DNA from: Oscillospiraceae bacterium
GTDB lineage: Bacteria; Bacillota; Clostridia; Oscillospirales; Oscillospiraceae
NCBI GenBank assembly: GCA_017435245.1
Contig: JAFSFK010000189.1
Coordinates: 1-11,993 of the forward strand
Direction: 5' to 3'
DNA: 11,993 nt
The notes below the pieces were generated by a model. It was not told the DNA's origin. It saw nothing but the letters and a program-made list of their open reading frames with translations, and made no database searches. The position numbers were made by a program, and so were the translations under genes. Below, piece by piece: positions 1-11,993 of the stretch; the stretch's first letter is position 1; the number at the start of each line of letters is the position of its first letter.

Positions 1-149
1 CGAGCTGACGCTCGATAATAATTGAAAATGGAAAATGGATAATTGAAAATGATTGTGTGGCCTTCGGCCACTATTTAAATTATTTTCCAGAGGAAAATAC
101 CACAATTTTCAATTTTCAACTTTCAATTTTCAATTCGCTCGTCAGAGCG
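1..149. repeat. AT-rich foldback repeat, MITE-like, upstream of citC
   Basis: This gene-free stretch is built as an imperfect long inverted repeat. The left arm (about 15-50) holds repeated TTGAAAAT/GGAAAAT units; the right arm (about 104-135) holds the complementary ATTTTCAA units. Each end carries a small palindrome: CGAGC-TGAC-GCTCG at 1-14 and CGCTC-GTCA-GAGCG at 136-149. These two match each other in inverted orientation at 10 of 14 positions, and the four mismatches are paired so that each keeps its own stem. The centre has a perfect 6-bp hairpin, GTGGCC-TTC-GGCCAC, at 57-71. No protein is convincing here. The layout fits a non-autonomous miniature element or a dispersed intergenic repeat, and the folded RNA could end transcription from an upstream gene. 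The left end may extend beyond the window, and no target-site duplication can be assigned. Confidence 0.6.
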
Positions 150-177
150 ATAAACCAAAATTTAGAGAGGAACATCT

Positions 178-1158
178 ATGGACATTGAACTGCTGCCCAT
201 TTTGCTGGGACGAAAAAAGAATATCCGGGCGCAGTTTCTTGCTGCCGCCGGACTGGAGCCGGATGCTGATGTAGACTGCACCATCCTGGTCTGGGACGGG
301 GATGACCTCATCGCCACCGGTTCCCGAAAAGAAAACATTCTCAAGTGCATCGCCGTGGATCCCGCCCGGCAGGGCGAGGGCCTTACCGCCACGGTGCTGA
401 CCCAGCTGCGGCAGGACGCCTTCAACGCCGGCTGCGATCACCTGTTTTTGTACACCAAGCCCCAAAATCTGCTGCAGTTTTCCAGCCTGTTTTTCTACCC
501 CATCGCCCAGACCGACCAGGTGCTGCTGATGGAGGACCGGCCCAACGGTATCGGGAGCTTTCTGGACTCCCTCCCCGCTCCCGCCTCCGGCGGAAAAACC
601 GGTGCACTGGTAATGAACTGCAACCCCTTCACCCTGGGGCACCGGTATGTGATCGAGACCGCCGCCAAGGAATGTGACCGGGTGTATGTATTCGTCCTGT
701 CCGAGGACAAAAGCCAGTTCTCTGCAGATGTGCGAATGGAACTGGTGAAACAGGGCACCGGGGATCTTCCCAATGTAACGGTGCTGCCCACCGGTCCTTA
801 CCTCATCTCCTCCGCCACCTTCCCCACCTATTTTCTCAAGGAACGGGATCACGCACAGGCCGTCCAGTGCCAGCTGGATATCGCCGTCTTTACCCGGTAT
901 TTTGTGCCGAAATTCGGCATTACACACCGCTATGTGGGCACTGAGCCTTTGTCCGCAATGACCGACCAATACAACCAGGCACTTATGGAGCATCTGCCCA
1001 AGACCGGAATCGAAGTGCGGCTTGTGCCCCGGCTGGAGCATCAGGGCAAGCCCATCAGCGCCACCTCCGTGCGGCAGTGTATCAACCTCAAGGACTATGA
1101 TAAATTAAAAGACCTCGTCCCCCCCACCACATTAGAATATATCCGCAAAAATTTTTAA
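178..1158 (+). CDS. citC: [citrate (pro-3S)-lyase] ligase
   Basis: CitC activates citrate lyase by acetylating, with acetate and ATP, the thiol of the phosphoribosyl-dephospho-CoA group on the acyl carrier subunit CitD. The 326-residue protein has the expected two parts. The N-terminal part (about 1-130) is GNAT-like, with a DPARQGEGL stretch at 61-69 matching the acyl-CoA loop. The C-terminal part (about 140-326) is a nucleotidyltransferase fold with NPFTLGH at 149-155 (the HxGH-type ATP motif) and ISATSVR at 293-299 (the ISSTxxR-type motif). AGAGAGG at 164-170 lies 7 nt before the ATG and fixes the start. It is first in a tight same-strand operon, with 12 nt to the next gene. Length and motifs are typical and the gene looks intact. 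No convincing promoter is visible in the short leader, so transcription may start in or before the upstream repeat. Confidence 0.93.
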   Translation: MDIELLPILLGRKKNIRAQFLAAAGLEPDADVDCTILVWDGDDLIATGSRKENILKCIAVDPARQGEGLTATVLTQLRQDAFNAGCDHLFLYTKPQNLLQFSSLFFYPIAQTDQVLLMEDRPNGIGSFLDSLPAPASGGKTGALVMNCNPFTLGHRYVIETAAKECDRVYVFVLSEDKSQFSADVRMELVKQGTGDLPNVTVLPTGPYLISSATFPTYFLKERDHAQAVQCQLDIAVFTRYFVPKFGITHRYVGTEPLSAMTDQYNQALMEHLPKTGIEVRLVPRLEHQGKPISATSVRQCINLKDYDKLKDLVPPTTLEYIRKNF

Positions 1159-1170
1159 GGAGGAATCTTT

Positions 1171-2103
1171 ATGGAACGCAGAGCCACCCATATCCTCAGC
1201 AGCTATTACGCTCCCAGAGGTCATAACCGTATGTACGCTCTGGGCCAGCAGCTTGCCCAGATGTATCTTTCCCCCAACGACAAGCTCATCGGCATCATCG
1301 GCGAGGCCGGTTCCGGCAAAAGCGCACTGATCCGGGGAATGTTTCCCGGTCTGGAGCTGACCAACGACGATAACGGCGTATATATTCGTCCCCTGCCCCT
1401 GCTGGAGCAGGACAGCGGTTTTGCCTTTTTCTCCCCCCATACCTACCACGTGGATATCCGCTTTGAAAACGGTTTCACCCAGATGAGCGTGCTGGCAGAT
1501 GCCATTGCCGAAGCTCTCCAAAAGGGCAAACGGGTGGTGGTAGAGCATTTTGATCTGGTGTATCCTCTGCTGGGAGCCAATGCCAATATTCTCATCGGTG
1601 TGGGCGAACAGGTTCTGGTGGCACGCCCCAATCTCTTTGGCCCGGCACCGGAGGAGATCCGTAATACCGTGTACAAATCTCTGCACTACCGTCTGATGGC
1701 CCATACCGCAGAAGATCTGTGTGAGATGTGTATGGATGCCTTCGACCGTGACCGCTGCGGTCACGACGACGTGAAGCACGGCTTTGCCCTGTACTTCCCG
1801 GATACGATGCCTTCTTTCAACATCGCAGAGCTGGAAGCAAAGGTCAAGGAGATCATTGACCAGGATCTTCCTGTGACCTATGTAGACGAAAAGCATATCA
1901 GTATCGGCGATATGATCCATAAATGCACCGGTCCCCGGATCCACGTCCACCGTACCGGTCAGATCGAGAATCTGCACCTGCTGAACCACCTGATCTACGA
2001 CCCCTTCAAGCACCGCTATGTGCTGGCCGGCTGCGTGGGTGAGCATTCCGAAGAGCTGCTGAAACGGCTGGACATCCACCAGCAGCGTCCGGGTTGGGAC
2101 TGA
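1171..2103 (+). CDS. P-loop protein with C-terminal tRNA_SAD-like domain, in cit operon
   Basis: The function of this 310-residue soluble protein is unknown. It has a clear Walker A motif, GEAGSGKS, at 44-51, and a hydrophobic strand followed by acidic residues, VVVEHFD, at 122-128 that could be the Walker B region. The last 70 residues contain C252-x5-H258-V-x2-T-G-x-I, which resembles the C-x3-H-V-x2-T-G-E-I signature of the second additional domain of alanyl- and threonyl-tRNA synthetases. A further C288-x3-H292 pair follows. From memory, proteins of this size are annotated as 'alanine-tRNA synthetase second additional domain-containing'. AAGGAGG lies a few bases before the ATG. It sits 12 nt after citC and 4 nt before citXG, so it is very probably co-translated with them. 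The context suggests a role in charging, discharging or regulating citrate lyase, but nothing in the sequence proves that. There is no signal peptide or membrane segment. Confidence 0.75.
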   Translation: MERRATHILSSYYAPRGHNRMYALGQQLAQMYLSPNDKLIGIIGEAGSGKSALIRGMFPGLELTNDDNGVYIRPLPLLEQDSGFAFFSPHTYHVDIRFENGFTQMSVLADAIAEALQKGKRVVVEHFDLVYPLLGANANILIGVGEQVLVARPNLFGPAPEEIRNTVYKSLHYRLMAHTAEDLCEMCMDAFDRDRCGHDDVKHGFALYFPDTMPSFNIAELEAKVKEIIDQDLPVTYVDEKHISIGDMIHKCTGPRIHVHRTGQIENLHLLNHLIYDPFKHRYVLAGCVGEHSEELLKRLDIHQQRPGWD

Positions 2104-2107
2104 GCCG

Positions 2108-3448
2108 ATGGAGATCACTCTTGCCGAAATCCTGGAAGCACGGGAGCAGCGGGTGCTGCGGCAAAAGGAGCTTTTGACGCAGTATGGCAAAAGCCTTATC
2201 TGCTTCACCTTGAATATTGCCGGTCCTGTCAAGGATTCCCCGCTGATCCAAGCAGGTTTCCGTCTGGGCGACCGGCTTTTGAATGCGCAGCTGGAGGGTT
2301 CGGGCATCCGGATCCTGCACCGGGAAACCCTTTTTGCTCCTACCGGTCCCACAGGCTTTTATGTGGCGGACGCAGATGCGCTGCACCTGAAGAAGCTTGC
2401 CTGCGAGGCAGAGGATTCCTCCCCCGCTGCCCGGCTTTTTGATATGGATGTACTGGCACCGGACGGCAGCAAATACAGCCGGGAGGACTTGGGGCTTGCG
2501 CCCAGAAAATGCCTGATCTGTCAAAACGATGCCCGCATCTGCGGCCGCAGCCGTACCCATACGGTGGAGCAGCTGCAGAAAAAAACCAACGAGCTTCTGC
2601 AAAATGCGCTGTGGAGCGATACCGCCCGGCAGTTAGCCTCCACCGCAGTACAAAGCCTGCTGTGGGAGGTCTGCACCACGCCCAAGCCGGGACTGGTGGA
2701 CTGTCAAAACAGCGGCAGCCACACCGATATGGATATCTTCACCTTCTGTTCCAGTGCTGCCGGCCTGTATCCCTATTTTGAACACTGTGTCCGCATCGGT
2801 TTGGAGACCGCCGAACTGCCTGCAGAAGCTACCCTCTCCCGGCTCCGTCTGCCGGGAAAAGCAGCGGAACAGGTAATGTATGCTGCCACCGGCGGTGTGA
2901 ACACCCATAAGGGTGCTATTTTCTCTCTGGGGATCCTCTGCGCTGCCGCCGGACGGACACGCTCCCGGGATGGGGATATCCTTCTGGACCAATGCGCCCA
3001 AATGACCCGGGGCATCTGCCGCCGGGAGCTGGGTATGGGCTGCACCAACGGCCAGGCTCTGTATGCCAAATACGGCACCCGGGGCATCCGGGGGCAGGCA
3101 GAAATGGGTTTTCCCGCTGTCAAAGTCGGTCTGGAGGTCCTAAGCAACGGTCTCGCCCAAGGTCTGAGTCTGAACGATTCCGGCTGCGCCGCTCTGCTGC
3201 ATATGCTGGTCACCGCCGAGGACACCAACCTCCTGCACCGCAGCGACCCGGATACCTGCCAAAGCATTCTCCGGGAACTGACCGAGCTTCTGGCTGCAGA
3301 ACCTTACCCCACCAAAGACCGGCTGAACACGCTGGACGCAGACTTTATCCAAAAGAATCTCTCTGCCGGAGGCAGCGCCGACCTGCTGGCGCTGGTATAT
3401 TTCCTCCATCTTTTGGGCAAAAAGCGACAGGAATGTTTGATTATTTAG
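2108..3448 (+). CDS. citXG: Bifunctional CitX-CitG: citrate lyase holo-ACP synthase / triphosphoribosyl-dephospho-CoA synthase
   Basis: This 446-residue protein joins two enzymes of prosthetic group synthesis. Residues 1 to about 165 are CitX, which transfers the phosphoribosyl-dephospho-CoA group to the CitD serine; visible family features are GDRLLNAQ (54-61), ARLFDMDVL (108-116) and CLICQNDARICGRSR (135-149). Residues about 175-440 are CitG, which makes 2'-(5''-triphosphoribosyl)-3'-dephospho-CoA from dephospho-CoA and ATP; it shows TPKPGLVD (191-198), SHTDMD (204-209), GGVNTHKGA (262-270), AEMGFP (331-336) and EDTN (371-374). Fused CitXG proteins are known, for example in Haemophilus. Only 4 nt separate it from the previous stop and no strong Shine-Dalgarno is seen, so translational coupling is likely. 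The usual SPGGSADLL motif of CitG reads SAGGSADLL (419-427). Malonate decarboxylase MdcB/MdcG is an alternative family, but linkage to citC and the CitX motifs favour citrate lyase. Confidence 0.92.
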   Translation: MEITLAEILEAREQRVLRQKELLTQYGKSLICFTLNIAGPVKDSPLIQAGFRLGDRLLNAQLEGSGIRILHRETLFAPTGPTGFYVADADALHLKKLACEAEDSSPAARLFDMDVLAPDGSKYSREDLGLAPRKCLICQNDARICGRSRTHTVEQLQKKTNELLQNALWSDTARQLASTAVQSLLWEVCTTPKPGLVDCQNSGSHTDMDIFTFCSSAAGLYPYFEHCVRIGLETAELPAEATLSRLRLPGKAAEQVMYAATGGVNTHKGAIFSLGILCAAAGRTRSRDGDILLDQCAQMTRGICRRELGMGCTNGQALYAKYGTRGIRGQAEMGFPAVKVGLEVLSNGLAQGLSLNDSGCAALLHMLVTAEDTNLLHRSDPDTCQSILRELTELLAAEPYPTKDRLNTLDADFIQKNLSAGGSADLLALVYFLHLLGKKRQECLII

Positions 3449-3622: not shown

Positions 3623-4423
3623 GTGAATCATGAAAAAAGCAAACTCGCCCAATACCTGAGCGAGTTTTGGAGATACCGGGATCTTTTAAAGCTGCTGGTC
3701 AGCAAGAACATCAAGCTGAAGTACCGCCGCAGCTGGCTGGGTTATGTGTGGAGCATCCTCAACCCCCTGCTGATCATGATCGTTATGACGGTGGTTTTCT
3801 CCTCAATGTTCAAGCGCAACATTGAAAACTTCCCCGTATATCTGTTCTGTGGTCAGCTGCTGTTCAACTATATGAACAACTCTACCACCCAGGCCATCTT
3901 CTCCATCAACAACAGTGCGGCACTGCTGAAAAAGACCTATGTGCCCAAGTATATGTTCACCCTTGCCCGGATCACCAGCGGTCTGGTGGACCTGCTGTTT
4001 TCTCTGGGTGCTCTGGTGCTGGTGCTGATCGCCACCCAGTCCCGGGTCACTTGGTATGCTCTGCTGTTCCCCTTTGTACTGCTCCAGCTGTATGTGTTCT
4101 GCGTGGGACTGGGACTGTTTCTGGCACAGGCCAACGTGTTCTTTAAAGACACCCAGTTCATTTATAGCGCTTTCACCACAGCCTGGCTGTACCTGACTCC
4201 CATCTTCTACCCTCTGGAGGCCCTGCCTGAAGGCATCCAATGGTGCATCTCTCACTTGAACCCTATGTACTTTTTCATCGGTCAGTTCCGTGCTTTGGTG
4301 TACTCCGGCACGATGCCGGAGACGTACCTGATCATATCCGGCTGCGTGGCTGCGGTGGCAATGCTGCTGCTGGGAATGTGGAGCTTTATGCGGTCCAAGG
4401 ATCGGTTCATTCTGTATATTTGA
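3623..4423 (+). CDS. ABC-2 type polysaccharide/teichoic acid export permease (TagG/Wzm family)
   Basis: This 266-residue integral membrane protein is the permease of a surface-glycan exporter; with the ATPase encoded next to it, it would move a lipid-linked polymer across the cytoplasmic membrane. Family signatures are KLKYRRSWLGYVWSILNPLL at 32-51, ANVFFKDTQF near 170, LTPIFYP in the last third and LNPMYFF shortly after. About six hydrophobic segments are visible, as expected, and the length is normal. The start is GTG, chosen because GAGG at 3612-3615 lies 7 nt upstream and the next in-frame Met is too deep, inside the first membrane segment. An ATG at 3630 is out of frame. It is 16 nt before the ATPase gene. 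The substrate cannot be read from the permease; the convergent glf-glycosyltransferase operon suggests a galactofuranose-containing glycan. Confidence 0.92.
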   Translation: MNHEKSKLAQYLSEFWRYRDLLKLLVSKNIKLKYRRSWLGYVWSILNPLLIMIVMTVVFSSMFKRNIENFPVYLFCGQLLFNYMNNSTTQAIFSINNSAALLKKTYVPKYMFTLARITSGLVDLLFSLGALVLVLIATQSRVTWYALLFPFVLLQLYVFCVGLGLFLAQANVFFKDTQFIYSAFTTAWLYLTPIFYPLEALPEGIQWCISHLNPMYFFIGQFRALVYSGTMPETYLIISGCVAAVAMLLLGMWSFMRSKDRFILYI

Positions 4424-4439
4424 TTTAGGAGAAACAACT

Positions 4440-5186
4440 ATGGCTGACAAACAGGTTATGGTAGATGTGGATCAGGTAACGATCCGATTCAATCTTTCCA
4501 GCCAGAAGATCGATAATCTAAAAGAATACTTCATCAAGTTCATCAAAAAGGAATTGATGTTCCAGGAGTTCCTTGCGGTGAAGGATGTGAGCTTCACGGT
4601 CCACAGGGGCGAAGCCTGGGGTCTGATCGGCACCAACGGTTCCGGCAAGTCCACGCTGCTCAAGGCCATCAGCGGCATCATCAAGCCCTACCAGGGTAAG
4701 ATCACCATCAACGGCAGCATTGCTCCCTTGATCGAGCTGGGTGCAGGCTTTGACCAGGAATGCACCGCCCGGGAAAACATTTTCCTCAACGGCTGCGTGC
4801 TGGGTCACTCCCTGAAATATATGGAAGAGCATTTCGATGAGATCGTGGAATTTGCCGAGATCGAAAAATTCCTGGATTCTCCCATCAAAAACTACTCCTC
4901 CGGTATGAAGGCCCGTCTGGGCTTCGCCATTGCCACGATGGTCAAGCCGGATATCCTCATCGTTGACGAGGTTCTGGCTGTTGGCGACTACAAGTTCCGC
5001 CAGAAGTGCGAGAAGCGAATGAAGGAGCTGCTGGCAGGCGGCACCACATTGCTTTACGTGTCCCACAACATTGCGGAAGTCAAGCGGCTGTGTGACCACG
5101 CCCTTTGGATCGACAAGGGCAACACCCGAATGATCGGCGAGGTCAACGAGGTCTGCGATGCCTATATGGAAGAAATGAAGAACTGA
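4440..5186 (+). CDS. ABC exporter ATP-binding protein for polysaccharide/teichoic acid (TagH/Wzt family)
   Basis: This 248-residue cytoplasmic ATPase powers the permease encoded immediately upstream. It shows Walker A GTNGSGKST at 64-72, the signature YSSGM at 152-156, Walker B ILIVDE at 172-177 and the switch histidine H209 in YVSHN. The LIELGAGFDQECTARENIFL stretch (97-116) is characteristic of polysaccharide exporters of the Wzt/TagH/KpsT type. The protein stops soon after the nucleotide-binding domain, so it lacks the C-terminal carbohydrate-binding domain of the Wzt proteins that recognise capped O antigen. It is therefore more like KpsT or the Wzt of Klebsiella galactan systems. AGGAGA at 4427-4432 sits 7 nt before the ATG. 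The gene ends just before a bidirectional terminator and is last in its two-gene operon. Confidence 0.93.
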   Translation: MADKQVMVDVDQVTIRFNLSSQKIDNLKEYFIKFIKKELMFQEFLAVKDVSFTVHRGEAWGLIGTNGSGKSTLLKAISGIIKPYQGKITINGSIAPLIELGAGFDQECTARENIFLNGCVLGHSLKYMEEHFDEIVEFAEIEKFLDSPIKNYSSGMKARLGFAIATMVKPDILIVDEVLAVGDYKFRQKCEKRMKELLAGGTTLLYVSHNIAEVKRLCDHALWIDKGNTRMIGEVNEVCDAYMEEMKN

Positions 5187-5195
5187 TAAAAACAC

Positions 5196-5226
5196 AAAAG
5201 CCACCGGCCATGCCGGTGGCTCTTTT
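5196..5226. terminator. Bidirectional terminator between convergent operons
   Basis: GCCACCGGC at 5200-5208 and GCCGGTGGC at 5212-5220 form a perfect 9-bp GC-rich stem with a 3-nt loop. On the + strand TCTTTT follows and ends the exporter transcript. On the - strand the same stem is followed by CTTTTGTGTTTTT, which ends the polysaccharide operon coming from the right. The stem starts 13 nt after the ATPase stop and lies 43 nt past the acyltransferase stop. Confidence 0.9.
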
Positions 5227-5263
5227 GATTGTCGACGGATAAACCACCGATGATCTTTTTTGT

Positions 5264-6427
5264 TTATGCAGCGTTTTTTGTTTGGTATATATCTTCGGCA
5301 ACAAAAATTCTCTTAAGCAGCTGTTTCAGCATATGAAATACCATCACAATTGCATAACTCACAGCAAACACCAATACGGCATAAGCAACTGTGGACAGGA
5401 TCTCTATCAGCAGATTATCTGGCATTCGCCTATAGAAGGTATATGCCTTGCCCCTAAGTCCAATAGCCTCAAATTTACGGACAACACATAGATGTATCAG
5501 GTAGATGCCCAAGGATTTGGAACCCAGATGCAAAACCATTCGTTCTGCCTTTGAATCCGCCTTAAACGGCGTGCAATAAAGAGCAACAAACAAACAGTAA
5601 GAAGCTAAGTACCCACATATTGTAGAAGTACCCAAAAAATAGGTGTCACTGGTGTCGATGCGCATATCATGCACAGACAATGCATACTTCAAAAGGGCAA
5701 ACAACACAAAGCCGACTGCGCCACACCACTGCAACCACCGGGCATTTTTTCCAAACCATTCCCGATTCTGATAAGTTTCATAACCCATCAAAACAAACAG
5801 CACCGTTGTGGAAATAACCGTGGGGATGGTCAACGGATATGTCTGGTCCTGGATGGTTAGCACTCCCAAGTGCTGAACATCCCTGTTAATTACATAAAGT
5901 GCGGTCAAAATCATCAGATATCGTCTGCACTTATTGGCTTTGGGTGTGTCTGCACACATAAAGCTCAAAAGCGGCGCCCACATAAGAACCTGAACATAAG
6001 AAAAAATATACCACAGGTGCCCACTCAAAGCCATGTCAGCTTTCCATACTAAAATGTTTCCGAGCAAGTCGTGCAGATCAAAGCTATGCATATCCAGGCA
6101 GGACAGGAAACTAACCTGTCCGATATCCGCCAGGATCCAGTCCTGCCAGACCTGCGAGAAGATCATAACCCCAAAAGCGGGCAGCAGCAGGGTAGATACT
6201 GTTTTTTTTGCACGCAGTGTATGGGACGAATCGGGGTTTGCAAACAGGAAATATCCCATAATATACCAAAACACAGGAACCGGATCCACCACAAAGCAAC
6301 GGATGAAAAGGGAGTTCTCCAAAAGGGTATCCCCTTTCGTATACCAGGTCACCGTATGAAGGCAAATCACAAAAAAGCAAGCTACAATTCGAGCCAATTC
6401 AATGCTCGCCATGCGTTTTTTCACCAT
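5264..6427 (-). CDS. Membrane acyltransferase, acyltransferase_3 family
   Basis: This 387-residue polytopic membrane protein belongs to the family that transfers acetyl or other acyl groups to sugars of surface polysaccharides (OafA/WcjE-like). The N-terminus shows the family pattern, SIELARIVACFFVICLHTV at 8-26, with the conserved His at position 24. A second family element, HLWYIFSY, lies near the middle, and about ten hydrophobic segments are visible. GGGAGG lies 5-6 nt before the ATG. It is the last gene of the minus-strand operon, 39 nt after the pyruvyl transferase fusion gene, and ends before the bidirectional terminator. It is notably AT-rich: by hand count 21 of 60 bases at 5581-5640 are G or C, against 41 of 60 at 2941-3000 in citXG, so separate acquisition is plausible. 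Its acceptor is probably the glycan made by this operon, but succinyl or other acyl donors are possible. Confidence 0.85.
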   Translation of the reverse strand: MVKKRMASIELARIVACFFVICLHTVTWYTKGDTLLENSLFIRCFVVDPVPVFWYIMGYFLFANPDSSHTLRAKKTVSTLLLPAFGVMIFSQVWQDWILADIGQVSFLSCLDMHSFDLHDLLGNILVWKADMALSGHLWYIFSYVQVLMWAPLLSFMCADTPKANKCRRYLMILTALYVINRDVQHLGVLTIQDQTYPLTIPTVISTTVLFVLMGYETYQNREWFGKNARWLQWCGAVGFVLFALLKYALSVHDMRIDTSDTYFLGTSTICGYLASYCLFVALYCTPFKADSKAERMVLHLGSKSLGIYLIHLCVVRKFEAIGLRGKAYTFYRRMPDNLLIEILSTVAYAVLVFAVSYAIVMVFHMLKQLLKRIFVAEDIYQTKNAA

Positions 6428-6466
6428 CGATTTCCTCCCACCGTCATTTATTAATATGCGTCATTA

Positions 6467-8836
6467 TTAACGACTAAATAATTTTTTGGGGACACTTCTC
6501 TGTGGTTCTTTATTTTTCGCTTCTTTTATCAGATCCTCAACAGTTTGGGACAGTTGCTGCAGCTGCTCATTTAACTGACGGTTTTGCTCCTCCAGATTCC
6601 GGCACTGCTCCTGCAGCTGCATAATGCTTCTCAGCTCCAAGGCCTTGGTCTTGGGAGGCGTTTTTTCCATCTGCAGCGCATCCTTCAGCCACTGAACGCT
6701 AAAATCGATCAAAGGCTGCATTTTCTCCTTGACCTGGGCAAAATCTACCGGCTTGGTCCAGGGCTGTGCCTCCGCCATCTCAGAACCGCTGTAGAACAGG
6801 CGATCTTCCGTTCCTGTCATCTTCGACAAGCTCTCAAATCTGGACAATCCTCTAAGGCGGTTGGGGAACACCGTCATACTATGACCAAAAATAACAGAGT
6901 AGCAATAACCGTGGAAAGAGTCTGTGACCACGTAGGATGCGTGCTTGAAATATTTGACCCAATCCGAAACCTCCACATTTTCCAAAACATTAGGATCGTT
7001 GGCTTGCTCCTTGAGCTTTGCAAAATCATCCTGTCCGTCCAGAATAATATGGTATGGCAGATTCATTTTTTCTGCAGTAAGACGCACCGCATTTATTTTC
7101 TCTTCTGTGGGATTAAGAATATAACCCAACACATACTCACCGTCAATTGCTCTGTCGGACAATGCGGCTGCGGCATCATAATCCTCCATCCGGCAAAGGA
7201 ACACCGGATCCACTGTCTGCACTGCATCAACTCCAAAGTCTCGCTGACAGACCCTTACTCCACCGGTCTCCCGAACGGAAATCGCATCAAAACGCTGAAG
7301 CAAGTAGCTAACCTTCATACGCATTTCCTCAGGATAATAAGCACTGTCGTGGCCAAAGGATGTGGAGTATGCGATTTTTTTGTGGCCATCATCCACAAAA
7401 TCCAAGAAGAAGTGATAAGAACCTACATCCCGGTTGCTCCACCAGTTCCAAAGCTGATCAGAACCAACAACAAATGTCTCACAGTGGTAATTAAATCGAC
7501 CATAGTCTTCGATCCGGTTGGACATAGACTGCTCATAAAAATGTTTTGCAAACCGACGAGTCTTATTATCGGGCTTGCCCTTTGGTACTTCGCCAGACAG
7601 CACCGGCCATTCCAGCATCAGCACGCTCTTCCCCATATCTTTCAAGACCCGGTTCAATGCGTAGTTGGTCATAACACTGCCATAGTTGGCACCATACCAC
7701 CAACCGATGTAGCCAATATCAAATTTACGGTTCATACCGTAATCCACAGCTTTTTCAAAACCGTATTGATAGGTATCCAGCAGGTCGTAAAACCGCTCTC
7801 TGCGAGGATGCAGCAATGATGAATACTTGAGCTGCGCATTGTGCTTAACGGCGTGGTCAAGCGGTGCGGTTTTACAGAACTTAGCCCGCTTCCACAGCAC
7901 CTCCAGCATTTCCTGGCCCTTAGTATTATTCTGCAGGACCATACTGGTTCCCTTGCGGTCATCATACTTAGGATTGTACTTGTCGATATCCCAGAAATCG
8001 GCGATGGTCATATCTCCCTGCCGGGGCATCTTTGCAAAGGGGCATTGACCGCAGCTTTTTCGCAATGTCAGTAGTTTTAAAAAGGATTTCATATAAGCGC
8101 ATTCGTTACGCTTTTTCCGGTATTTCTGTCCATCTTCAAAGTCAATTGCCGTGGAGACATCCCACTTAACAATATCCTTATCCCGGAAGGAAACTCTGAC
8201 AGCTTTGCTGCCGTGCAGTGCTTCCTGCTCTTTTACAAATTTTTCGTAAACAGCCGGAGACGGTACGCCATGGCAAACCAGATCCATGGTGTACAAAAGC
8301 TCATGGGGTTTTCCCAAATAGCTGTTCATAGCCGCCACTTGGCAAGGCGTACCGGTGAACAGCACCGGTGTTCCTGCATCCAAATATTCCTTTACTTGAC
8401 GGTAGATCAACTTTGCGTCACTCTGGACATACTTGGAGCCTCTGAGCTTATGCAGCTGTTCCCGGTCTGTGACAACAATATTCTCCACGGCGTAGTAGTC
8501 ATCGGTGTAGGCAGCACCGCAAACAACGCCACCCTTTTCCAGCATCCACTCAGCCATAATGGTAAAGACACCGCCGGAGGAACTATTTGCACGCACCTCA
8601 TCGCTGGCCATTACCGCATAACAGCCGGGATACTCCAGATTCTCATACTTAGGCTGCGCAACAGGACAGGTCTTCAAACACAGACCACAATCGATACATT
8701 TTTCGTTATCGATCTGAGGGAAGAAGAATCCTTCCTTATCCGGTTTCATCTCTATGGCGTCCACCGGACACTTGTTATAGCAGGCACCGCAGCCGGTACA
8801 TTGATCGTGGGTTACCTGACGAATTGTTTTATCCAT
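6467..8836 (-). CDS. Fusion: ferredoxin/FrhB-like flavoprotein plus polysaccharide pyruvyl transferase, with coiled-coil tail
   Basis: This 789-residue cytoplasmic protein has three parts. Residues 1-60 are a double 4Fe-4S ferredoxin domain, with cysteines 13, 16, 19, 23 and 47, 50, 53, 57. Residues about 70-365 match the coenzyme F420 hydrogenase/dehydrogenase beta-subunit (FrhB) family, with SSSGGVF (85-91), GTPCQ (162-166), CHGVPS (188-193), CGQCPF (262-267) and GDMTIADFW (274-282). Residues about 372-690 are a polysaccharide pyruvyl transferase domain, with NYGSVMTNYAL (384-394), GSDQLWN (458-464), DPVF (543-546) and TDSFHG (638-643). This domain would add a ketal or related pyruvyl group from phosphoenolpyruvate, although family members vary in donor. 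Residues about 733-775 are Q/E/L-rich and look like a coiled coil. AAGGAGG at 8846-8852 lies 9 nt before the ATG. It follows the glycosyltransferase by 27 nt. The reading frame is unbroken, so the fusion is real rather than two merged genes. Confidence 0.88.
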   Translation of the reverse strand: MDKTIRQVTHDQCTGCGACYNKCPVDAIEMKPDKEGFFFPQIDNEKCIDCGLCLKTCPVAQPKYENLEYPGCYAVMASDEVRANSSSGGVFTIMAEWMLEKGGVVCGAAYTDDYYAVENIVVTDREQLHKLRGSKYVQSDAKLIYRQVKEYLDAGTPVLFTGTPCQVAAMNSYLGKPHELLYTMDLVCHGVPSPAVYEKFVKEQEALHGSKAVRVSFRDKDIVKWDVSTAIDFEDGQKYRKKRNECAYMKSFLKLLTLRKSCGQCPFAKMPRQGDMTIADFWDIDKYNPKYDDRKGTSMVLQNNTKGQEMLEVLWKRAKFCKTAPLDHAVKHNAQLKYSSLLHPRRERFYDLLDTYQYGFEKAVDYGMNRKFDIGYIGWWYGANYGSVMTNYALNRVLKDMGKSVLMLEWPVLSGEVPKGKPDNKTRRFAKHFYEQSMSNRIEDYGRFNYHCETFVVGSDQLWNWWSNRDVGSYHFFLDFVDDGHKKIAYSTSFGHDSAYYPEEMRMKVSYLLQRFDAISVRETGGVRVCQRDFGVDAVQTVDPVFLCRMEDYDAAAALSDRAIDGEYVLGYILNPTEEKINAVRLTAEKMNLPYHIILDGQDDFAKLKEQANDPNVLENVEVSDWVKYFKHASYVVTDSFHGYCYSVIFGHSMTVFPNRLRGLSRFESLSKMTGTEDRLFYSGSEMAEAQPWTKPVDFAQVKEKMQPLIDFSVQWLKDALQMEKTPPKTKALELRSIMQLQEQCRNLEEQNRQLNEQLQQLSQTVEDLIKEAKNKEPQRSVPKKLFSR

Positions 8837-8863
8837 TGGAAGATTCCTCCTTAAGGGGATAGA

Positions 8864-9826
8864 TTAAACGGTTCCTTTTTTCACCGTGTTCACCAGCAGC
8901 TTGATTCGCTCGGGCATTTTGTCCAAATACTTTGCCAGATCATACTCCTGCAGCAGCTGATTCAGGTTCTGCAAATGCTCCTGGGCACACTGCACTTCGG
9001 GGCTGCGGATATCGCATACCAGGAACTCCAGCAGCCACTTGGTATACTCCTTGCCGTATTTTTCCAGCCAGTCCTGCTCTTTCCAGTATTTACAGATGGT
9101 TTCCACGAACCCAAGATGCTTACGCAGCTTTTCATCCATATCATCCCGGACACTGGCCATCAAGGAACCCTCTCTGCACCAGCGGTAGTAATACAGCTCG
9201 TCAGAGATAAACGCAAAGTTCTTGCCGTGGGGCAGTGCCTGCAGCTGGAACACCATATCCTCGCCGTACTTGACGGTCTCATCAAAGCTGAGACCGTATT
9301 CCGTGAAGAACTTGCGGTTATAGGCTTGGCGCCATACAAAAGGCTTGGCACCGGTTTCGTTGAACAGTACGTCGGGGGTAAACTCCCACCGGCGGTGGGT
9401 ACGCACGCCCAAGATCCAATAATGCCAATCAGAAGCCCGGGGCTTTTCGGGGAAAATGTGGGTGCCGAAGATCACCACATCCGTAGGTGCTTCCAGATTC
9501 TCGATCCAGACACGCTCACAGGCGTTAAGTGCCAGATAGTCATCGGAATCCAGGAACATAATGATCTCGCCGTTAGCCTCACGGATACCGGCGTTGCGGG
9601 CAGAAGAAAGTCCGCCGTTGGGCTTATTCACGATTTTGATACGATTGTCAACCTGTGCAAACTTCTCCAGAATAGCCAGGGAATTATCCGTACTGCCATC
9701 ATTGACACAGATGAACTCTACATCATACAAAGTCTGATTGATACAACTGGTCAGGCAGGTGCTCAAACACTTTTCAACATTATAGACCGGAATAATCACC
9801 GATACTTTTACAGGAAGATTTTTCAT
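8864..9826 (-). CDS. Glycosyltransferase family 2
   Basis: This 320-residue GT-A fold enzyme would transfer a sugar from a nucleotide donor to the growing glycan on the cytoplasmic side. Motifs in order are IPVYNVE at 12-18, NDGSTDNS at 42-49, PNGGLSSARNAG at 69-80, the metal-binding DSDD at 93-96 and GED at 188-190, where the catalytic base is expected. No membrane segment is obvious. Its start overlaps the end of the preceding glycosyltransferase gene by 4 bp (ATGA), which implies coupled translation; a GGGAGGG ribosome site lies inside that gene. The N-terminal third closely resembles that of the upstream enzyme, so the two are likely paralogues with different acceptors. The sugar specificity cannot be read from the sequence. 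With glf in the operon, one of the two may add galactofuranose, though that role is not shown. Confidence 0.92.
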   Translation of the reverse strand: MKNLPVKVSVIIPVYNVEKCLSTCLTSCINQTLYDVEFICVNDGSTDNSLAILEKFAQVDNRIKIVNKPNGGLSSARNAGIREANGEIIMFLDSDDYLALNACERVWIENLEAPTDVVIFGTHIFPEKPRASDWHYWILGVRTHRRWEFTPDVLFNETGAKPFVWRQAYNRKFFTEYGLSFDETVKYGEDMVFQLQALPHGKNFAFISDELYYYRWCREGSLMASVRDDMDEKLRKHLGFVETICKYWKEQDWLEKYGKEYTKWLLEFLVCDIRSPEVQCAQEHLQNLNQLLQEYDLAKYLDKMPERIKLLVNTVKKGTV

Positions 9827-10880
9827 TTGCCCGCCCTCCCTAACAGTTTCTTGAAGAAGAGTTTGACTGTGTATACAAAGCCGTGCTCACGCAGGCAGGC
9901 CAGACCGCCCCGGATTCTTCCCTTGAAGGAACGGTCCTTCTCCGGAGCCACAGGCGCAGGATAGAACTCGGGCAGTTCTTCGCCGTTCTTTTCCATAATG
10001 CGGAACTCATGGTACCGCTCGGGATCGAAAATAACCTTTTGCAGGCTGTTCCACTTATACCACTCGAAGTAATCCTTCTGCAGCAAGCCGTCCATCTGGT
10101 GGCGGCGGAAATCCTCAGCAAAACGCAGAATAAACTCCGCCTGCAGAGGCTCAGAAAGACGCTCGTAGTTCCAGTTATAGGAATCGTACTTGATACGTAC
10201 CATCACAGGCTCCACGATACCCTTTTCCACAGGGTGGCTCTCCAGGAACCGTTCCATCTCATCGTACTCGTCGCAAATACAGTAGACCTTTCCGGGGGAG
10301 TTAATGGAAGATGCCTCATTGTCCTGACGGTAGTGCAGGAAGCACTCCTCCATCAGCCGCACCCGCTGGGCACAGATCCAGACCTTAAAGTTAAAGCTGG
10401 CATCCTGGTAAGATGCACCGGGCGTTTCATTAAAACGGATATTGTTGCTGCGGATAAAGTCCTTGCGGTAAATGGCAGACCAGATGGTGGGCTTGATGTT
10501 GAAGAAGTCCACCATCTCTCTCTTGGACTTAAACCCAGTCAGAGGGCAGAAGGTCCGGCGGCTGGTGACCCGGGAAGCAATGGGATTGGGCGTATTTCTT
10601 TCTGTAGGCTTGGAGAAATAGAAGAAGAAACCGGACTTGACCACATCCAGGTCATACTCCTTAGCCTTTGCATAGAGCTTCTCGAACATATCCAGCTCTG
10701 CGTAGTCATCGGACTCGATGATGCCGATGTACTCGCCGGTGGCCATATCAAAGCCCCGGTTCATACTGTGACCGTAACCGCCATTGGGCTTGTCAATGAT
10801 CTTGATACGTGCGTCCTTAGCCGCATACTCCTGCATAATGGACAGGGTGGAGTCGGTGGAGCCGTCATTGACACAGATGA
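9699..10880. repeat. 16-bp direct repeat shared by the two glycosyltransferase genes
   Basis: TCATTGACACAGATGA occurs at 9699-9714 and at 10865-10880, in the coding sequence for the ICVNDGS motif of each enzyme. The copies are 1166 bp apart and in the same reading frame of their genes, so recombination between them would leave an in-frame chimeric glycosyltransferase. The repeat most simply reflects common ancestry and motif conservation. Confidence 0.6.
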
Positions 10881-10986
10881 TCTCCAGTTCCTTAAGGGTC
10901 TGATTGACAATGCTGTCCAGGCACTGGTGCAGATACTTTTCCACGTTGTAACAAGGGACAACGACCGATACTTTAGGCATACTCAT
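9823..10986 (-). CDS. Glycosyltransferase family 2
   Basis: This 387-residue cytoplasmic GT-A enzyme has PCYNVE at 11-16, NDGSTD at 40-45, PNGGYGHSMNRGFDMATGEY at 67-86, ESDD at 91-94 (Glu in place of the first Asp, which occurs in this subgroup) and a QDASF segment near residue 210 at the expected catalytic-base site. The C-terminal part is longer than in the neighbouring glycosyltransferase and ends in a basic stretch that could lie on the membrane. The first ATG is preferred over the second, two codons later, because AGAGAGG lies 8 nt before it. It follows glf by 23 nt and overlaps the next gene by 4 bp. Acceptor and donor are unknown; a role in making the galactofuranose-containing polymer is inferred from the operon. 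Confidence 0.92.
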   Translation of the reverse strand: MSMPKVSVVVPCYNVEKYLHQCLDSIVNQTLKELEIICVNDGSTDSTLSIMQEYAAKDARIKIIDKPNGGYGHSMNRGFDMATGEYIGIIESDDYAELDMFEKLYAKAKEYDLDVVKSGFFFYFSKPTERNTPNPIASRVTSRRTFCPLTGFKSKREMVDFFNIKPTIWSAIYRKDFIRSNNIRFNETPGASYQDASFNFKVWICAQRVRLMEECFLHYRQDNEASSINSPGKVYCICDEYDEMERFLESHPVEKGIVEPVMVRIKYDSYNWNYERLSEPLQAEFILRFAEDFRRHQMDGLLQKDYFEWYKWNSLQKVIFDPERYHEFRIMEKNGEELPEFYPAPVAPEKDRSFKGRIRGGLACLREHGFVYTVKLFFKKLLGRAGK

Positions 10987-11009
10987 TTCACTAACCTCTC
11001 TTACCGTTG

Positions 11010-11993
11010 TTATACAATGGCTTTCAGATCATCCAGTGCAGCACGGATGACCTTGTCCATATCGTAGTAGCGATACTGGCCCAGACGGCCGCCGAAGATA
11101 ATGTTGCCCTGCTCGTCAGCAAGTGCCTTATACTGGGCATAGAGCTCGGCATTTTCGGCATCGTTGACGGGGTAGTAAGGCTCCATTCCCGGCTGCCACT
11201 CAGCGGAATACTCCCGGCTGATAATGGTGGTGGGCTGCTTGCCGAACTCGAAATGCTTGTGCTCGATGATTCGGGTGTAAGGCACTTCCCGCTCGGTGTA
11301 GTTGACCACGGCGTTGCCCTGGAAATCTTCCATCTCCAGCTCCTCGGTCTCAAAACGGACGCTGCGGTACTTGAGGGCACCCAGCCGGTAACCGAAGAAC
11401 TCATCGATACAGCCGGTGTAAACGATGGTCTTGGCGATATCAGGTTCGGCCTTGATCAGCTCAAAGTAATCCGTATCCAGCCGGACCTCAACGCCTTCCA
11501 GCATTTTCTCCACCATAGCGGTGTAGCCGCCCATGGGGATTCCCTGGAAACGGTCGTTGAAGTAGTTGTTGTCATAGATAGAACGGCAGGGCAGACGTTT
11601 GATGATAAAGGCAGGCAGCTCCTTGCAGTCACGCCCCCACTGTTTTTCGGTGTAGCCCTTCACCAGCTTGGTGTATACATCCGTACCCACCAGGCTCAGA
11701 GCCTGCTCCTCCAGGTTCTGCGGGTCAGTGATATTCAATTGCGCTACCTGCTCTGCGATCTTGGCCTTAGCCTCTGCGGGAGTGCGGATGTTCCACATCT
11801 TGGAGAAGGTGTTCATATTGAAGGGAAGGTTGTACAGCTCGTCCTTGTAAACCGCAATGGGAGAATTGATGTAGTTGTTAAACTCCGCAAACTGGTTTAC
11901 ATAATCCCACACCTCTTTGTCGCTGGTATGGAAAATATGGGCGCCGTACTTGTGGACGTTGATGCCGGAAACATTTTCGGTATAAATATTTCC
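11010..11993 (-). CDS. glf: UDP-galactopyranose mutase, 5' end outside window
   Basis: Glf interconverts UDP-galactopyranose and UDP-galactofuranose with reduced FAD, supplying the Galf donor. The visible 327 residues follow the family closely. They include HKYGAHIFHTS at about 15-25 with the active-site His region, NLPFNMNTF, GYTEKQWG, ELPAFIIKRLP, RFQGIPMGGYT, VPYTRIIEHKHF and near the end FGGRLGQYRYYDMDKV; the arginines that bind the UDP-sugar phosphates are in place. The open frame runs to the window edge, so about 40 residues with the FAD-binding GxGxxG are missing. A GTG at 11912-11910 is an internal valine, not a start: the 27 codons before it encode family-conserved sequence. It is the most upstream visible gene of the minus-strand operon, 23 nt before the first glycosyltransferase. 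The operon promoter lies outside the window. Confidence 0.95.
   Translation of the reverse strand, partial: GNIYTENVSGINVHKYGAHIFHTSDKEVWDYVNQFAEFNNYINSPIAVYKDELYNLPFNMNTFSKMWNIRTPAEAKAKIAEQVAQLNITDPQNLEEQALSLVGTDVYTKLVKGYTEKQWGRDCKELPAFIIKRLPCRSIYDNNYFNDRFQGIPMGGYTAMVEKMLEGVEVRLDTDYFELIKAEPDIAKTIVYTGCIDEFFGYRLGALKYRSVRFETEELEMEDFQGNAVVNYTEREVPYTRIIEHKHFEFGKQPTTIISREYSAEWQPGMEPYYPVNDAENAELYAQYKALADEQGNIIFGGRLGQYRYYDMDKVIRAALDDLKAIV

Follow-up and report, generated by a model that had tools for sequence, protein, structure and literature searches.

The stretch of DNA analysed here, referred to as the window, comprises 11,993 nucleotides of an Oscillospiraceae bacterium (positions 1 to 11,993 of contig JAFSFK010000189.1, assembly GCA_017435245.1) and carries a forward-strand open reading frame (1171-2103) for a 310-residue protein that we name PSAD (TsaE-SAD protein), which is probably an accessory component, so far overlooked, of a glutamate fermentation pathway. 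The frame has an ATG start with AAGGAGG upstream, begins 12 nt past the end of citC and stops 4 nt ahead of citXG, a placement that agrees with an earlier first-pass annotation made from the sequence alone, which also rightly held PSAD to be none of the known cit genes. The upstream gene (178-1158, forward strand; TIGR00124, 315 bits versus a cut-off of 262) encodes a (citrate/citramalate) lyase ligase and probably belongs to the same transcription unit as PSAD. The downstream gene (2108-3448, forward strand) encodes a fusion of holo-ACP synthase and triphosphoribosyl-dephospho-CoA synthase (Pfam CitX and CitG).

PSAD is a real gene encoding a conserved two-domain protein. A chance frame is excluded by homologues in the order, six of them full-length with 48-66% identity among 295 genomes, by those at the named loci (80 retained of at least 238 found in a scan of genome contigs) and by the residues conserved across a 126-row alignment (125 rows distinct, a few being truncated or broken genes). 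In this alignment the Gly, Gly, Lys and Ser of the Walker A motif are retained in 124 rows, H178 and C252 in 122 rows each and H258 in 121, with residue 182 being D in 118 rows and E in four. Individual departures from the standard form include a TsaE-like half alone (165 residues; L244:9493-9987, genome G756), two tandem copies (L230:9174-11089, genome G782) and a Prevotella nigrescens version (L211:11974-12918) with Q for H258 and L for E99, adjacent to which GlmS, GlmL, GlmE and MAL are all encoded. The family median isoelectric point of 5.5 says nothing either way on tRNA binding. PSAD is annotated as a "hypothetical protein" in the P. nigrescens and Peptoclostridium acidaminophilum records, both RefSeq-derived; an NCBI name for such proteins taken from the second additional domain of AlaRS was not confirmed by them. 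No description of a TsaE+SAD protein, or of a SAD protein in glm clusters, was found in the literature as covered by title and start of abstract, a coverage outside which most subscription journals lie.

Domain architecture of PSAD

The N-terminal part (residues 7-158; 1189-1644, forward strand) is a TsaE/YjeE-like P-loop ATPase domain according to the predicted model, fold search and profile comparison, with the Walker A motif GEAGSGKS at residues 44-51 (1300-1323, forward strand), just where the first-pass annotation had placed it. A uridine-kinase-like P-loop was considered and dropped: TsaE is at the top of the fold search, and phosphoribulokinase 5b3f is a weak match (Foldseek probability 0.14; sequence E 0.82). 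The segment YHVDIRFE (residues 92-99; 1444-1467, forward strand) is the likely counterpart of TsaE HxDxYR and E125-H126 (1543-1548, forward strand) that of TsaE E108-W109, both conserved in the alignment and paired along an hhalign path of low confidence past the P-loop. With this pairing, PSAD shares with TsaE the Asp of the HxD position and the Glu of the E108 position, whereas Y82 and W109 are replaced by R97 and H126. The available text of PMC4330362 assigns roles to TsaE E108 and W109 and has Y82 and W109 as required for ATPase activity. PSAD further differs from TsaE in its fusion to a SAD domain and in scoring only 16.5 bits against the Pfam TsaE profile, under the gathering cut-off of 26.6; its locus is absent among the Pfam TsaE matches above cut-off in nine genomes.

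The C-terminal part (residues 167-305; 1669-2085, forward strand) is a SAD domain of the aminoacyl-tRNA editing type by both fold and profile comparison. In the SAD domains of AlaRS, ThrRS and free-standing AlaX the residues of the H-x3-H and C-x3-H motifs have a metal-binding and editing role. PSAD shares with these proteins the fold and the conserved H, C and H of that site, and differs from them in the spacing and in the second His: HTAED (residues 178-182; 1702-1716, forward strand), which profile comparison and alignment pair with AlaRS H-x3-H, ends in Asp or Glu, and CTGPRIH (residues 252-258; 1924-1944, forward strand), paired likewise with ThrRS CxGPH and AlaRS CGGTH, has two extra residues, giving C-x5-H versus the C-x3-H of AlaRS and ThrRS in related genomes. 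Thus, the first-pass annotation, which had read a SAD-like motif at residues 252-265 (CTGPRIHVHRTGQI) and named structure prediction as the check, was borne out as to the domain, but the resemblance to AlaRS and ThrRS does not extend to their exact motifs. PSAD also has its SAD domain joined to a TsaE-like ATPase and not to a synthetase or to the AlaX N-terminal parts. The Pfam tRNA_SAD profile matches four of seven PSAD members at E up to 1 and its cut-off of 24 bits is not reached, the scores being 22.8-22.9 bits in G667 and G518, with the PSAD locus unlisted in the other seven genomes.

Distribution with glutamate mutase and citrate lyase genes

Glutamate mutase, a textbook B12 radical enzyme, is described as consisting of GlmS and GlmE, with GlmL as its accessory protein. 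In a class sample of 391 genomes, PSAD occurs in 14, GlmE in 22 and CitF, the citrate lyase marker, in 37. Twelve of the 14 PSAD genomes have GlmE; the other two are G360 (completeness 89%; its short PSAD contig also carries MAL) and G594, counted as PSAD despite being a 109-residue C-terminal remnant. PSAD is present in all four GlmE-positive, CitF-negative genomes of the class and in none of the 19 that are CitF-positive and GlmE-negative (0/24 if five weak or fragmentary CitF matches below 50 bits, in G295, G365, G403, G497 and G599, none with PSAD and otherwise excluded, are counted). No CitF was found in the PSAD genomes G661 (99% complete) and G348, G411 and G476 (90-94%). All seven PSAD genomes of the order are among its eight GlmE genomes. 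A phylum sample of 149 genomes added 36 with a complete or partial PSAD, of which 35 have GlmE; the latter was sought there in PSAD-positive genomes alone, so that the figure has no background rate of GlmE without PSAD. No cit gene lies near PSAD in the 34 phylum loci that were fetched (up to about 10 kb on each side), G717 and G752 having been omitted because each shares its genus with a genome already covered (G671 and G714). PSAD thus does not follow the citrate lyase genes across the class sample; it does share genomes and gene clusters with GlmE, in one direction, as GlmE is also found without PSAD. Across 60 loci, the correlation of PSAD distances with each Glm-pathway protein, the other three partialled out and without a significance test, is 0.31 for GlmE, 0.19 for GlmS, 0.15 for GlmL and -0.15 for MAL, which lends weak support to a PSAD-GlmE link.

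Excluded before these counts were two order matches (G288, G176), nine weak P-loop matches in the class, the phylum genomes G804 and G710 and the GlmE of G487. The loci L038 and L066 seem to derive from the same records as G224 and G294, and both species are counted in the named loci as well as in the order genomes. Gene labels come from query proteins named by reading, with Pfam and NCBIfam where run; they match the annotation of all 19 named genes checked in the records of Peptoclostridium and Prevotella, where the two hypothetical proteins match PSAD (self-matches excluded).

The neighbourhoods point to the same pathway. A pathway gene is present in the available stretch at 75 of the 80 named loci (51 glm/mes plus cit, 10 glm/mes only and 14 cit only, many contigs being short); L057, L068, L077, L085 and L096 have none. 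In P. acidaminophilum, citC-PSAD-citX stand together with a glm set, while the P. nigrescens cluster reads GlmS-L-E-MAL-AtuA-DUF4387-PSAD-fumarate hydratase genes, with no cit gene in the stretch read. In the relative G224, citC-PSAD-citXG is divergent from a full set of MAL, GlmE, GlmL, GlmS, MesB, MesA, CitF, CitE and CitD. In the window's own genome, contig C36 opens with part of an inverted repeat found at the window's start, on the reverse strand, and continues citD-citE-citF-mesA-mesB-gntR-glmS-glmL-glmE (glmE cut); the shared repeat makes it probable that the two contigs join there. The gene set of G224 and the window is that of the methylaspartate pathway, which would run from glutamate via 3-methylaspartate, mesaconate and citramalate to pyruvate and acetate. 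The cit genes of this pathway are taken to encode citramalate lyase in the part of PMC4682846 available, and those beside PSAD probably do so too; the legend of Figure 4 in that paper names no PSAD-like gene.

PSAD also persists where the mutase itself is altered. In eight phylum genomes (G740, G776, G699, G731, G688, G769, G718 and G756) no GlmS orthologue was found, the best match per genome having 28-34% identity (100% in the control G714); the weak matches may include a diverged GlmS, and the assembly of G740 has a completeness of 84%. No MAL above cut-off was found in seven of the eight, G776 having MAL elsewhere in the genome. PSAD and a GlmE or GlmE-like gene are retained in all eight, the latter (L226, L228, L235, L237, L240, L242, L244, L261) at most about 3 kb from PSAD in seven and about 13 kb away in G699 (L261). 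Eight GlmE positions (66, 100, 149, 171, 177, 181, 326 and 330), which we take to have substrate or cofactor roles (the text of one paper, checked for five of them and for GlmL, gave no match), read RRREYYKE in all 79 normal GlmE sequences of PSAD clusters (77 distinct) and in nine of the ten PSAD-less ones. The Tyr at 177 is absent in all eight GlmS-less genomes, and at least five of the eight residues are lost in five of them (three of family f128, one each of f112 and f172), with no inner stops; two GlmE alignments disagree at position 100 for three rows. In the three genomes of family f139, GlmE differs at 177 alone (G699 also at 326), and its substrate may have changed. Loss of Y177 by itself is no proof of a dead GlmE, because the second GlmE of G755, which has its own GlmS-like neighbour, is also altered there, as it is at 171. 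The Walker A motif, D95, E125, H178, D/E182, C252 and H258 are retained in the PSAD of seven of the eight genomes (that of G699 read as L232), with the ATPase half alone remaining in G756.

Candidate functions

The mechanism best supported by these comparisons is one in which PSAD would work on or with GlmE, because GlmE is needed in the genome across the samples, is co-inherited with PSAD, stays paired with it in genomes that yielded no MAL or GlmS and has the best distance correlation. We propose, as a plausible reading that falls somewhat short of being probable, that PSAD is a dedicated ATP-dependent accessory factor of B12-dependent glutamate mutase, whose target or partner would be the large subunit GlmE. 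Its TsaE-like domain would bind Mg-ATP, with binding or hydrolysis serving as a switch on a larger complex. The analogy that we favour for such a switch is TsaE acting on the TsaD-TsaB complex, which is of the ASKHA type; here GlmE and the reactivase GlmL, which has an ASKHA fold, would make up the larger complex, the step from GlmE partner to reactivase being one that we infer. The GlmL model is of the actin/Hsp70 type and close to diol dehydratase reactivase, 2-hydroxyacyl-CoA dehydratase activators, FtsA and acetone carboxylase. The SAD domain could be the effector, recognising or hydrolysing a small amino-acyl or carboxylate ligand, such that the mutase would be kept, repaired or switched with the nucleotide state. 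GlmL (MutL) shares gene clusters and probably the client enzyme with PSAD, but has an unrelated fold. A possible analogy is offered by MeaB/MMAA, the G-protein chaperone of methylmalonyl-CoA mutase, as a P-loop NTPase tied to an adenosylcobalamin mutase; it is set apart by a different type of P-loop and the lack of a SAD domain.

Several observations weigh against this proposal. PSAD is missing in ten of the 22 class GlmE genomes and in one of the eight of the order (G222, a divergent match). In the GlmE tree nine of these ten form a single clade (SH-aLRT 100) flanked on both sides by GlmE linked to PSAD, and a single loss of PSAD therefore suffices for all nine; the tenth, G316, is very divergent and on a long branch. 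The tree was made by a quick method from 64 of 96 sequences, the PSAD group being thinned at 88% identity, and the placement of G316 and of the GlmS-less copies, mostly long branches, is unsure. The nine PSAD-less clusters together hold glmS-L-E, MAL, mesAB and citDEF, and therefore PSAD is dispensable for catalysis or for the pathway as such. Further, the crystal-structure GlmE (1cb7/6h9e, presumably from C. cochlearium) is closest to the PSAD-less clade, with 1011 bits against a member of it versus 710 against that of G224. Mutase repair is impossible as the function of PSAD in the five genomes whose GlmE lost most site residues, and four of these five nevertheless retain the PSAD core residues. 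No glmL is found near PSAD at the GlmS-less loci, for which the neighbourhoods and not the whole genomes were searched. To these are added the replacement of the residues that TsaE requires for ATPase activity and the phylum sample's lack of a background rate. In the samples of the order and the class, GlmE is accompanied by this additional conserved protein, save for one clade and the two divergent copies in G222 and G316; the closeness of the crystallised enzyme to that clade may be why PSAD was missed. PSAD fuses two domains known from tRNA biology. What is at stake is how the mutase is maintained, how cells handle a non-protein amino acid that fermentation yields as an intermediate, or whether a pseudo-mutase has taken on a new role.

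The second of these would take the form of trans-editing: PSAD would deacylate tRNA, likeliest tRNA-Asp, mischarged with 3-methylaspartate and thereby shield translation, its TsaE-like domain binding the tRNA or a partner. This explains the SAD domain more directly than does an accessory factor of the mutase, given the editing fold and the near-invariant H178, D/E182, C252 and H258; it fits the occurrence of intact PSAD with GlmE, the maker of 3-methylaspartate, in the samples searched (one exception, G360) and the part of TsaE itself in tRNA biology. The consulted part of PMC1989143 reports that L-threo-beta-hydroxyaspartate competes well in charging and replaces Asp, whereas the literature, where seen in part, yielded no direct evidence for AspRS charging 3-methylaspartate, only that for beta-hydroxyaspartate. 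Against it, no methylaspartate is expected in the seven genomes that keep PSAD without MAL above cut-off or recognisable GlmS, five of them having a GlmE minus most of its site residues; the full-pathway clade does without PSAD; and the tetrad is H/D/C/H with C-x5-H in place of H/H/C/H with C-x3-H, the P. nigrescens copy even having Q at H258. We thus regard trans-editing as unlikely, though worth keeping in view.

These GlmS-less genomes speak for a second function of a PSAD-GlmE complex, for instance the sensing of glutamate or of a nucleotide, or hydrolase activity linked to RNA, in which GlmE would be the binding scaffold and fermentation just one use. All eight altered-GlmE genomes are without recognisable GlmS, and the site-depleted GlmE-like genes of the five f128, f112 and f172 genomes lack inner stops next to a retained PSAD. 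PSAD also lies immediately before rph (RNase PH) in 25 of the 34 phylum loci (L215-L232 and others), mostly then followed by rdgB. This last adjacency, in a murI/gerM ... tig-clpP region, is however probably inherited synteny, the order murI-gerM-rph-rdgB being, as we take it, also that of B. subtilis; a diverged B12 subunit could be hidden among the matches of 28-34% identity, and the ATPase half in G756 may be decay. We consider a second function doubtful on balance. Its most specific form is similarly speculative, namely that TsaE-SAD and GlmE make up an undescribed two-protein machine, in which a hydrolase of the editing type, switched by ATP, would have a (pseudo)glutamate-mutase barrel as its scaffold or as its sensor of a ligand; this might be separable from fermentation because lineages without recognisable B12 subunit and ammonia-lyase retain the pair.

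The first-pass annotation had suggested that PSAD might act on citrate lyase as an ATP-dependent deacylase, reactivase or assembly factor, either against CitC or in its support. PSAD does immediately follow citC in 34 of the 80 named loci, as in the window, and immediately precedes citXG in 22 (mesA in 10, glmS in 6); CitF is found in eight of the 14 class PSAD genomes, above chance (p 6e-6). But the class genomes separate the two enzymes, with PSAD siding with GlmE and never with CitF alone; the phylum loci and Prevotella lack nearby cit genes, and the PSAD-less clade retains citDEF. The accessory genes citC, citX and citG, members of other families than PSAD, are its operon neighbours in just a part of Clostridia, and the linkage which that annotation had proposed to survey is lost outside the methylaspartate context. 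A citrate lyase role is thus rejected as very improbable and largely refuted by the genome distribution: the domain call was good, but the proposed function was tied to the wrong neighbour. Least credible of all, and likewise rejected, is that PSAD is a displaced TsaE serving t6A synthesis, for which its TsaE fold would speak, since a canonical TsaE (YjeE/YdiB), the ATPase of bacterial t6A synthesis, is separately encoded in eight of nine PSAD genomes searched (7/7 of high quality, the miss being the 63% complete window genome), which speaks against service to TsaB-TsaD.

Neighbouring genes

Clusters without nearby cit genes often have a pair of AtuA-family and DUF4387 genes between MAL and PSAD (L212, L213, L214, L218, L222, L157-L159, L161 and L211). 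The pair is present in 15 of the 34 phylum loci, its Pfam families having been checked on L154 and L157, and may provide another route for the downstream step. L216, L219, L221, L223, L225 and L226 have, ahead of rph and immediately upstream of PSAD or of AtuA-DUF4387-PSAD, a trio encoding an HgdB-like protein, an HgdC-like activase and an RNase Z-like metallo-beta-lactamase (MBL) protein, with families checked on L225. A cob(I)alamin adenosyltransferase gene adjoins PSAD or lies in its cluster in L013 (9994-10530), L088, L091 and L210 (1863-2378).

In the window, the repeat shared with C36 is an AT-rich inverted repeat near the contig end (20-135, no strand assigned; arms 20-50 and 105-135, 87% complementary). 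The assembly seems to be broken between citD and citC at this repeat (window 1-150), which is possibly a small mobile element. An Rfam scan of the window gave nothing above threshold. The remainder (3623-11993), as read from its translations, encodes an ABC-2-type exporter pair, an acyltransferase, a ferredoxin-type/polysaccharide pyruvyl transferase protein, two glycosyltransferases and a UDP-galactopyranose-mutase-like protein, and resembles a surface-glycan cluster.
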